Below, piece after piece: positions 38,203 to 42,653 of a stretch of 53,100 nucleotides of DNA. Position numbers and translations under genes: made by a program. The notes below the pieces were generated by a model. It did no database searches, was not told the origin of the DNA, and saw only the letters and a list, made by a program, of their open reading frames with translations. The stretch covers positions 1 to 53,100 of the forward strand of contig NZ_JAAAMH010000020.1 of NCBI RefSeq assembly GCF_024105655.1. Reading direction: 5' to 3'. Each line of letters begins with the position of its first letter. The first letter of the stretch is position 1. The stretch comes from Aliihoeflea sp. 40Bstr573. Its GTDB lineage: Bacteria; Pseudomonadota; Alphaproteobacteria; Rhizobiales; Rhizobiaceae.

Positions 38203-39915
<1,713 letters not shown>

Positions 39916-40129
39916 GGAAGGCTCCTGCAGATTCAATGATGCCAAGGGCTTGGGGCTGGCTCGACACGCTCGCGCCACATTGCACAACGTGCTGCCACGA
40001 AATCACCAGCGAATGACCCCGATCCGCCTGCAACCGGTCGCCTGGTTCGACATTTCCCTTCCAGCCGCTTCCAAGCGGTGATCGTGAGCAAGGGACAGAT
40101 TTCAAATCGAACCAAAGAGGACTTTCACG
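39916..40129. promoter_or_regulatory. Divergent region between ureC and the first secreted-protein gene
   Basis: This 214-base stretch must carry a ureC promoter on the minus strand and a promoter for the secreted protein on the plus strand. An inverted repeat CCGCTT-CC-AAGCGG lies at 40065-40078. No clear -35/-10 pair or nickel-regulator box was recognised. Confidence 0.4.
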
Positions 40130-40696
40130 ATGAAACGGATTATTGGACTGACGACCGCCGCCCTGATGGGCGCATCCATGATGGTTGCCCCCGCGCTCGC
40201 CCAGACGGGGGTCGGCGGTGGAGTGACCGGCGGCGTCAACGCCGAGACGGGCGTGACCGGAGGCGTCAACGGTGGTGCGGGCGTCGATACGGATGTCGAG
40301 GCGGGCGCGAGCGGCAGTGCCGGCACGGATACGACCACGGGCACGATGACCGACACCGAAACCGATGCCGGCACGACCGCCGCAATCGGTTCGCAAGCCA
40401 CCTTTGACAGTGCATTGTCGGCGATCGAAAGCAACGCGTCCAGCACGACGGCCATCGAAGCGATGTCCGAGGTGGGCAGCGTCGAGGTGATCAAGATCGG
40501 CGAACTCGAAGGTGCCGACATGTCGGCCCTCGCGACGGCCAAGACCGAGAGCGAGGCGGAGATCACCGAGCTTCAGGCCGCGCTCGAGGCCAATACGGCC
40601 GTAACCACCGCGCTCGAGGCCGAGGACGTCGCCGCCGACGATGTGGTCGCGACCGAAATGGGCGCCGACGGCGGACTGATCGTCTATGTCGAGTAA
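40130..40696 (+). CDS. Small secreted protein with Gly/Thr-rich linker, unknown function
   Basis: This 188-residue protein has a signal peptide of about 24 residues (ending ALAQ), then a low-complexity Gly/Val/Thr/Asp linker at about 25-85. Within that linker an 18-base unit, read as VTGGVN, is present twice (40223-40240 and 40253-40270). A C-terminal helical/strand domain at about 88-188 ends LIVYVE. I do not recognise a family. The C-terminal domain shares a pattern with the next protein: an AIE-type helix, VEVIKIGELE, EITELQAALE and DDVVATEM match similarly placed segments there. AGAGGA precedes the ATG. It lies opposite the urease genes. Confidence 0.72.
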   Translation: MKRIIGLTTAALMGASMMVAPALAQTGVGGGVTGGVNAETGVTGGVNGGAGVDTDVEAGASGSAGTDTTTGTMTDTETDAGTTAAIGSQATFDSALSAIESNASSTTAIEAMSEVGSVEVIKIGELEGADMSALATAKTESEAEITELQAALEANTAVTTALEAEDVAADDVVATEMGADGGLIVYVE

Positions 40697-40720
40697 CGTG
40701 TTTTTCGAGTAGCGACAAAG

Positions 40721-40751
40721 CGGCGCGGGCTTGGACCCGCGCCGTTTTTTT
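40721..40751 (+). terminator. Intrinsic terminator after the first secreted-protein gene
   Basis: A perfect 9-bp GC-rich stem (CGGCGCGGG / CCCGCGCCG) with a 6-base loop is followed by seven T. It lies 24 bases after the stop, so the two secreted-protein genes are largely separate transcripts. Confidence 0.92.
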
Positions 40752-40852
40752 ATGTTAGGGAGAACGTGCTTCGCAGTTGCGGCACGGGTGGCCGTCCACC
40801 AGATCCCCGCGATAGAACCATGGCGAAAAGCTCGACCGAAGGACCCATTGAA

Positions 40853-41404
40853 ATGGCTCAGACCAAGTTCCGCAATCGCACGCCCCTGGCGGTCATCCTG
40901 GCCGGCGCGCTGGCGATTGGTGCCCACCCGGCCTTGGCGCAGGGCCTCGACAGCGAAGGGGCCATCGACACCATCGTGGGCAGCGACGTGAAGACCGAGG
41001 AGAAGAGTGCCGTCGACGAGAGCGAGCGCGTCATCGCCGCGATCGAGGCGACGATGGACAATGCGCGCATCGTCCGCCGCGCCTTCAACATCGACGAGGT
41101 CGAAATCGTCTTCCTGCCCGAAGTCGGAGAGGGAGATAGCGGCATCACGGAAAAGCGGGAGGAATTCGCCGACCAGATCGTCGAACTGCAACAGTCCATC
41201 GAAGGCAGCGCCATCTTCTTTCATGCGGTGGATTCCCGCCAGATCCTGGTGCGCGACATCGTCGCCATCGAATTTGCCAACGAGAACCGCGCGGCGACGA
41301 TTTTTGTCGCAGGCGCAGCACCGGCTGGCGCTACGCCCGAGACGACTGCGGACGAGACGACTGCGGACGAAGAAGAGCCCGCGGACGCCGACGCGACGGA
41401 CTGA
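40853..41404 (+). CDS. Small secreted protein, paralogue-like partner, unknown function
   Basis: This 183-residue protein has a signal peptide of about 33 residues (ending PALAQG), a domain at about 45-160 and an acidic tail rich in Thr, Asp and Glu encoded partly by a 15-base tandem repeat (41339-41368, read as ETTAD twice). The domain contains VIAAIEATMDN, VEIVFLPEVGEG, QIVELQQSIEG and RDIVAIEF. These match in order and spacing the C-terminal domain of the preceding protein. Start choice is uncertain: an ATG at 40820 is also in frame. It ends 12 bases from the convergent ureB stop. No known family recognised. Confidence 0.68.
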   Translation: MAQTKFRNRTPLAVILAGALAIGAHPALAQGLDSEGAIDTIVGSDVKTEEKSAVDESERVIAAIEATMDNARIVRRAFNIDEVEIVFLPEVGEGDSGITEKREEFADQIVELQQSIEGSAIFFHAVDSRQILVRDIVAIEFANENRAATIFVAGAAPAGATPETTADETTADEEEPADADATD

Positions 41405-41416
41405 AGCCATGGGCAT

Positions 41417-41722
41417 CTAGAGCGCGCCCATGATCTTTTGCTGGAACCCGAAGATGCGGCGGGCTCCGCCGATAGGCACCAGCGTCACATCGCGTTCCTG
41501 ACCAGGTTCAAAACGTACGGCGGTGCCGGCTGCGATGTCGAGCCGCATGCCGCGCGCGGCTTCGCGATCGAACGCCAAGCCTTCGTTGACCTCGAAGAAA
41601 TGGTAATGGCTGCCGACCTGGATCGGCCGGTCGCCAGTGTTCGCAACCTTGACGCGGACTGCGGCCTTGCCCGAATTGAGCTCGATCTCGCCCGCTGCTG
41701 GGATGATTTCTCCGGGGATCAT
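41417..41722 (-). CDS. ureB: Urease beta subunit UreB
   Basis: This 101-residue subunit begins [16 protein letters not shown] and contains the diagnostic block [21 protein letters not shown] followed by [17 protein letters not shown]. It packs with UreA and UreC in the urease trimer. It starts seven bases after the ureJ stop on the minus strand. After its stop the urease strand is interrupted by two genes on the plus strand before ureC. The protein is complete. Confidence 0.97.
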
Positions 41723-41729
41723 CGCGCCG

Positions 41730-42326
41730 TCATCCCGCGACCATCAGCCAGACGCCCGCGAGCGCGGTTGCCCCACCCGCCATGCGGCTGATCGACCGGC
41801 CCGCCTTGCTGCCGGAAGCGCGACCCAGCCCCAGGCCGGCAGCGACGCCGGCGGCGTGTAGCAGGGCTGTGGCGAGCGCAAAGCCGAAGGCGTAGCCGAT
41901 GGCCGCCGCTTCGCCGATCTCGCCGCCATGCGCATGGCCGTGGAAGAGTGCAAAAAAGCCGACGATCGCCATGCCGAGCGGCACGGGGACCGGAACGGCG
42001 AACGCGACAAGGATGCCGATGGCAACGACCGATGCGAGGATCGTCGGCTCGACGAAAAGCAGCGGCATGCCGACCATGGCGGCAAGGAAGCCGATCCCCA
42101 TGACGGCAACAAACGATGCCGGAACGGCCCAGATCGCCCGACCGCCCAGCATCGCGGCCCACAGACCGACGGCGGCCATCGCCAGCACGTGATCGGTGCC
42201 GAACAGCGGATGTGTGAAACCGGCCATGAACGAGCCGTGATCGGCCGGGTCGAGATGCGCGAAGGCGGGCGTGGCGCTTGCTGCCAGCATTGCAAGCGCA
42301 GGGGTCAGAAGTCGTCTCAATCGCAT
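41730..42326 (-). CDS. ureJ: HupE/UreJ-family nickel/cobalt permease
   Basis: This 198-residue membrane protein has a cleavable N-terminal sequence (ending PAFAH), six predicted helices and the family motif [16 protein letters not shown] with a second histidine cluster FHGHAHGGE. It is the usual UreJ nickel uptake or release protein of urease operons. The ATG at 42326 is preferred; a TTG 21 bases upstream starts the longer frame. It lies between ureA and ureB, as in other alphaproteobacteria. Confidence 0.92.
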
Positions 42327-42350
42327 CGTTTCAATGCTCCTTCGCAAAAT

Positions 42351-42653
42351 TTAGCGGATCGGCTCGTGGACGGTCACGAGCTTGGTCCCGTCGGGAAAGG
42401 TGGCCTCCACCTGTACGTCGTGGATCATCTCGGCAATACCGTCCATGACCTGGTCGCGGCCGATCACATGCGCGCCCGCTTCCATCAGGTCGGCAACCGA
42501 GCGCCCGTCGCGTGCGCCTTCGACAACGAAGTCGGTGATGAGCGCGATGGCCTCGGGATGGTTGAGCTTGACCCCGCGCTCGAGCCGCTTTCGGGCCACG
42601 ATCGCCGCCATGGCGATCAAGAGCTTGTCCTTTTCCCGAGGCGTCAAATTCAT
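42351..42653 (-). CDS. ureA: Urease gamma subunit UreA
   Basis: This 100-residue subunit begins [20 protein letters not shown] and carries the conserved [21 protein letters not shown] and [14 protein letters not shown] blocks. It is the smallest structural subunit. The ATG at 42653 follows the ureD stop by ten bases; the longer frame upstream lies inside ureD. It is complete. Confidence 0.97.

Follow-up and report, generated by a model that had tools for sequence, protein, structure and literature searches.

A family of apparently exported rhizobial proteins encoded antisense between ureB and ureC, with a possible tie to the general stress response

INTRODUCTION

The urease structural genes of S. 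meliloti are reportedly split, much as they are in the locus described here; Miksch et al. are reported to have found in 1994 that other open reading frames (ORFs) interrupt them. An opposite-strand gene lying between the genes of one operon has been described in S. aureus, where co-transcription of the noncontiguous operon menE-menC-MW1733-ytkD has been reported (PMC7154746). The locus analyzed here has the same arrangement. It differs from the men case, as that account presents it, in that the urease operon holds one to three genes of a single exported family, and in that the likeness is one of anatomy. A third point of comparison is the EcfG (group ECF15) regulon of the general stress response, for which the R. 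etli EcfG1 promoter motif has been given as GGAAC-N16-CGTT (PMC3892343). In S. meliloti, the corresponding sigma factor is RpoE2, and most RpoE2-dependent genes are described as still being without a predicted function (PMC6180224).

Here, we analyzed a window of 53,100 nucleotides from Aliihoeflea sp. 40Bstr573, in which two plus-strand genes, P1 and P2, lie between ureC and ureB. An earlier note on this DNA had taken the two genes for an undescribed pair of diverged, secreted paralogues inserted antisense into the urease operon. Our best explanation is that P1 and P2 represent the two deep branches of a rhizobial family, so far undescribed, whose small exported proteins are probably periplasmic, and, with the stress role included, we give this reading as a whole about an even chance of being right.

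RESULTS AND DISCUSSION

Two conserved genes opposite the urease operon

P1 and P2 are encoded on the plus strand, and ureC and ureB, both identified with Pfam, on the minus strand (Table 1), so the antisense placement given in the earlier note stands. The second ORF was listed as 40766-41404, but the ATG at 40853 is the better start, being backed by the alignment of orthologues and by an AAGGA-type ribosome site upstream that was recognized by eye. Both proteins begin with what, by eye, is a Sec-type signal sequence ending ALA|Q, in keeping with their earlier description as exported.

Table 1. Positions of P1, P2, and neighboring features in the window
Feature	Position	Strand	Basis
ureC, urease alpha subunit	38203..39915	-	Pfam Urease_alpha
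Divergent ureC/P1 intergenic region, conserved blocks	39916..40129	.	
P1, type-1 member, 188 aa, Gly/Thr-rich linker, apparently exported	40130..40696	+	
P1 signal sequence, up to ALA|Q	40130..40201	+	By eye; conserved in orthologues
P1 conserved C-terminal domain, residues 90-188	40397..40693	+	AlphaFold2 model, profile match
Intrinsic terminator 3' of P1, 13-pair stem	40717..40748	+	
P2, type-2 member, 183 aa, apparently exported	40853..41404	+	
P2 signal sequence, up to ALA|Q	40853..40939	+	By eye, orthologue alignment
P2 conserved domain, about residues 60-158	41030..41326	+	Alignment, profile match, low-confidence model
P2 acidic low-complexity tail, ETTAD repeat	41336..41401	+	
Gap of 12 bp, convergent stop codons P2/ureB	41405..41416	.	
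ureB, urease beta subunit	41417..41722	-	Pfam Urease_beta
ureJ/hupE	41730..42347	-	Pfam HupE_UreJ
ureA, urease gamma subunit	42351..42653	-	By eye, ORF listing

P1 and P2 are real genes under purifying selection. Across five genomes, third codon positions account for 63% of the substitutions in P1 and 59% of those in P2, and the dN/dS of the two genes is 0.10-0.32, compared with 0.04-0.10 for ureC. A minus-strand open frame of 502 aa (39908-41416) overlaps both genes and is most likely spurious, because the substitution pattern and dN/dS favor the plus-strand P1 and P2.

The distance between the starts of ureC and P1, 214 bp here, is 214-217 bp across the five genomes. Within 39913-40132, two segments are nearly unchanged in these genomes, the 40-50 bases 5' of P1 and a block at about 39994-40018; no known promoter type was recognized in the conserved blocks of this interval. 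The earlier suggestion that ureC had been forced onto a separate promoter gained nothing from a scan for sigma-70-like sites, which found none in 39850-41800.

P1 and P2 are diverged relatives

Independent profiles of the type-1 and type-2 domains, built without the rest of the proteins, aligned over 103-104 columns with a probability of 98.9-99.2% (E = 2.7e-17 and 1.8e-19), versus only 0.4-1.1% for reversed-profile controls. With the P2 domain alone as the query, phmmer found P1 at E=1.7e-4 and matched no reversed ORFs. Iterated searches started from P1 or from P2 ended with an identical set of 84 of 6453 ORFs, and again with no reversed ORFs. The C-terminal domains of both proteins match the family profile, and most of the ordered segments that the earlier note had named there correspond to positions that do not vary when eight sequences are aligned (AIE, VE, an E further on, I-x-ELQ, E, and VA). 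Also present are the differing low-complexity regions that it had pointed out, a Gly-rich linker in P1 and a repeated ETTAD acidic tail in P2. Based on these profile comparisons, P1 and P2 are homologous and are diverged paralogues.

The P1 domain block, from about residue 91, was modeled by AlphaFold2 from the eight-sequence alignment with a pLDDT of 76-92 and was good in 2 of 5 models. The P2 model was poor (mean pLDDT, 42.9), and in it the elements run, at low confidence, in the order helix, strand, helix, helix, strand, strand, which is also the P1 order once the kinked P1 helices are merged. As modeled, the two folds do not look unrelated, and the family domain is predicted to be an alpha/beta domain of ~100 residues at the C terminus.

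A Foldseek search with the whole P1 model, including its disordered half, yielded no solved relative (best match, E 0.92), and a PDB sequence search with the family profile reached E 0.022 at best. In Pfam and NCBIfam, we found no convincing match common to several members, weak matches being limited to at most 2 of 46 members for Pfam and at most 4 of 46 for NCBIfam. The NCBIfam model BRANT, which matched 4 of the 46 members below its cut-off and covered residues 10-27 of P1, was rejected as not shared, as were weak single matches to thymidylate synthase and TrbC. Thus, the claim that the proteins belong to no known family held in Pfam, NCBIfam, and the PDB. A plasmid tblastn search with P2 gave no match, and titles and abstracts of open-access (PMC) articles yielded no description of the pair.

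Distribution of the family

Surveys with a 46-sequence profile gave matches in 87 of 151 genomes at the family level, a few of them covering the signal-peptide end only, in 36 of 199 at the order level, several of them again confined to that end of the profile, and in 11 of 190 at the class level, with the own genome included in each count. With the own genome set aside, the class-level matches fall largely at the signal-peptide end, and none was counted as a member; one of these matches, in genome G347, extends to profile position 151. What had been put forward as a candidate for an undescribed pair is no isolated pair: P1 and P2 belong to two branches of a large, undescribed family, and they define an unnamed, widespread group of apparently exported rhizobial proteins.

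We built a tree from 101 of 102 members (a duplicate in L120 was dropped, and L003 was omitted as the same locus as L046). Under a midpoint root, and with many inner nodes supported below 50, the tree splits into type 1 (n = 47) and type 2 (n = 54) with supports of 87 and 91. Another contig of the own genome carries a third member (L109, C44:135437-136045), a type-1 protein with a long Gly/Ser/Ala linker; its gene lies close to an ORF judged by eye to encode a response regulator. Elsewhere, tandem runs of four and three more distant family members occur at G014:C38 and G117:C32, respectively.

Residence in the gap between ureB and ureC

The earlier note had regarded ureB and ureC as normally adjacent. 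In this bacterial family they are often apart, the gap measuring at least 600 bp in 74 of 124 ureB-ureC pairs from the 151 family-level genomes, and a split ureB-ureC is common. The pairs were drawn from 126 ureC entries, with two G057 fragments merged and weak or broken matches left out, and from 126 ureB matches; two ureC genes had no ureB on the same contig within 15 kb. Using 132 family matches (E up to 8.5e-7; weaker or unlisted ones were left out), we found that 31 of the 124 gaps hold 43 family members, all of them antisense. All 49 tree members in a urease context, a set overlapping these 43, are antisense as well. Three of the 49 occupy other gaps, namely ureA-ureB (L094 and L095) and ureB-ureJ (L058); the ureA query was a wrong-frame translation, and its matches mark only the place of the gene, including in the L094 and L095 context. 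Wherever a locus has both types (15 of 15), type 1 directly precedes type 2 on the same strand. An extra type 1 follows type 2 at two of these loci, and at two (L062 and L064) the stretch contains no ureC.

Forty-four large gaps hold no family gene, and we read 20 of these (L111-L130, from other genera). Members of the LprI family (Pfam PF07007) were present in 14 of the 20, a protein of 216 aa that matches nothing in Pfam or NCBIfam in 7, and a cyclase in 4, and all 25 matches are in the sense orientation. The ureB-ureC gap is a general cargo site. Like P1 and P2, the LprI proteins are small, have a signal-like N terminus, and reside in this gap, but they belong to a different family and are encoded in the sense direction (14 of 14). 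Of the stretches with the P1/P2 family, 9 contain LprI-like matches as well, e.g., L069 and L072.

The variety of cargo in other genera is what would be expected of passive hitch-hiking, in which the gap tolerates insertions and the presence of P1 and P2 there means nothing beyond an unrelated role of the proteins themselves. We consider this explanation unlikely, if worth weighing, given that the three other cargo families counted are always sense and the P1/P2 family always antisense, a contrast that is hard to obtain by chance unless the insertions were few. We favor the view that residence between ureB and ureC reflects a shared chromosomal history, with the P1 and P2 genes lodged in the urease operon and carried along with it, and possibly kept there because the cell tolerates, or gains from, convergent transcription.

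A second urease is encoded in the own genome (G000:C68:175516-177594); its ureC is 55% identical, and its ureB and ureC lie 102 bp apart with no insert. Its presence recalls the two urease operons described for Brucella (PMC1983905).

Occurrence apart from urease

The family is not restricted to urease-bearing genomes or loci. Eight genomes have a family member but no ureC match, and for 52 of the 101 members in the tree the stretch examined contains no ureB-ureC. For the type-2 genes, 26 stretches are without ureC in this sense, although six of them are only 8.5-9 kb long and some of the genomes have ureC elsewhere.

In 9 of the 26 (L048, L052, L054, L055, L057, L061, L062, L071, and L078), the type-2 gene and genes for an acyl carrier protein (ACP) and a FabF-like beta-ketoacyl synthase (KAS) follow in a row in one direction. 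In urease stretches, these neighbors lie beyond ureD. KAS is found on the same side of type 2 in those 9 of 26 stretches versus 14 of 28 stretches with ureC, and ACP is found in 16 of the 28, two of them doubtful (L081 and L082; 35%, other strand). Genes on the other side of type 2 in the ureC-less stretches include those for an aldolase (5 stretches) and a glutathione S-transferase (GST; 3 stretches), and a ureE-like gene is retained in 2 of the 26 (L061 and L062). From their gene order, the nine KAS-bearing stretches look like the same place minus urease. The other 17 have no KAS, and several of them are short or at other places. A functional tie between type 2 and its KAS and ACP neighbors was considered and dropped, as ureDAJB separates them in urease genomes.

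The pair is thus conserved in relatives, at the corresponding position as well as away from urease, and, with modeled folds that do not look unrelated despite the poor P2 model, the earlier view of two related genes is left standing. Its word "inserted" implies a direction that the type-2 tree does not establish. Fitch parsimony on that tree required 12 changes, compared with an average of 18.2 and a minimum of 13 in 500 shuffles, and placed a non-urease state at the root, so that urease may have been either lost or gained around the type-2 gene.

These distributions also bear on a role in urease function. P1 and P2 could be exported partners of urease or of the handling of urea, nickel, or ammonia, and the family does recur in urease operons, in 31 of 124 ureB-ureC gaps and in the ureA-ureB and ureB-ureJ gaps noted above. 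We judge such an accessory role quite improbable. The remaining 93 of the 124 gaps, that of the own second urease among them, contain no member among the matches used; members occur in genomes and stretches without urease; and urease subunits are generally predicted to be cytoplasmic, according to a description of the Brucella enzymes (PMC1983905). P1 and P2 are more likely to be stress proteins lodged in a urease operon than parts of urease.

A stress promoter motif on the type-2 branch

We searched upstream regions for a strict EcfG motif, defined as GGAAC and CGTT with a spacer of 16 or 17. The motif precedes 22 of 54 type-2 genes versus 9 of 967 other ORFs (Fisher p ~1e-23, in a test that treats related genes as independent and uses control ORFs greedily picked by length, spurious ones included). 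The density of the motif in the loci would predict 0.4 of 54 type-2 genes, and resampled upstream sequence gave 0.2 of 101 on average. Only 1 of 47 type-1 genes has a strict site, or 2 when a wider stretch is considered. The type-2 sites occur both in urease context (11 of 28) and outside urease (11 of 26), and 17 of the 22 lie 24-58 nt ahead of an in-frame ATG; of the remainder, two are at 5 and 10 nt, two are at 88-98 nt, and one has no following ATG. With one mismatch allowed, the motif was found before 39 of 54 type-2 genes, 15 of 47 type-1 genes, and 64 of 967 other ORFs. A sigma-70-like motif showed no useful excess among the 101 members (2 of 101 versus a null mean of 0.18), and an RpoH-like motif was found before 0 of 101.

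This GGAAC-N16/17-CGTT motif is the same as that of the EcfG regulon, as described for R. etli (PMC3892343) and for RpoE2 of S. meliloti (PMC6180224), and, as a promoter motif, it links the type-2 branch to the general stress response. Unlike EcfG regulon promoters, those of P1 and P2 in the window are without the motif. There is no strict site anywhere in the window, and neither P1 nor P2 has a site even with one mismatch. The same is true of the type-2 genes of the near relatives L004, L005, and L046, and the type-2 gene of L047 has a one-mismatch site only. Across the own genome, the motif was not in excess (79 sites versus 77 in a backwards control). A stress role for the genes of the window may nevertheless be suggested by the EcfG motif of their relatives.

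Based on this motif and on the occurrence of the family apart from urease, we propose a new family of exported, probably periplasmic stress proteins that would be resident in the urease operon but separate from it, a proposal that could as well prove right as wrong. P1 and P2 would act in the envelope under general stress, independently of urease catalysis. Their export is suggested by the signal sequences recognized by eye, and their molecular act might, at a guess, be periplasmic binding, shielding, or scaffolding.

Transcription across the gap

The anatomy of the locus could also be that of a noncontiguous operon, an arrangement known for the S. aureus men genes (PMC7154746). Here, a ureDAJB transcript would read through the antisense P2 and P1 into ureC, and the P1 and P2 mRNAs, once induced, would reduce urease by acting as antisense RNA. 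All 43 gap members are antisense, at 21 of 27 loci the stops of type 2 and ureB are no more than 60 bp apart, and many relatives have the EcfG stress motif on type 2, each of which is consistent with this scheme. Furthermore, a scan of 28 junctions for terminators in the ureB direction with at least 6 stem pairs found none, and read-through from ureB toward ureC may occur. However, shuffled sequence gives only 0.7 of 28 such terminators, and therefore 0 of 28 means little; type-2 genes outside urease have their own terminator in only 1 of 26 cases. In the window itself, a weak terminator-like site of 5 pairs is oriented in the ureB direction (41396-41379). In addition, members without urease need no such role, and common ancestry may account for much of the constant orientation. 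Overall, we regard the noncontiguous operon as distinctly unlikely.

A stress-switched form of this operon, confined to part of the Rhizobiaceae, strikes us as a long shot. General-stress transcription of type-2 (and type-1) genes would then yield an mRNA with two functions, encoding an exported stress protein of the new family and, as antisense RNA, splitting or destroying the ureDAJB-ureC transcript. If this were true, urease would be shut down while envelope stress proteins are made. The constant antisense lodging of the family in urease operons makes it a natural system in which to test whether convergent transcription regulates genes in alphaproteobacteria.

A terminator scan of the window returned 2 sites, versus an average of 1.4 in shuffles, and only the one after P1 (13 pairs, conserved) was used as a terminator. 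Its stem is conserved in five genomes, the own genome and four relatives, with a weaker T-run in L047.
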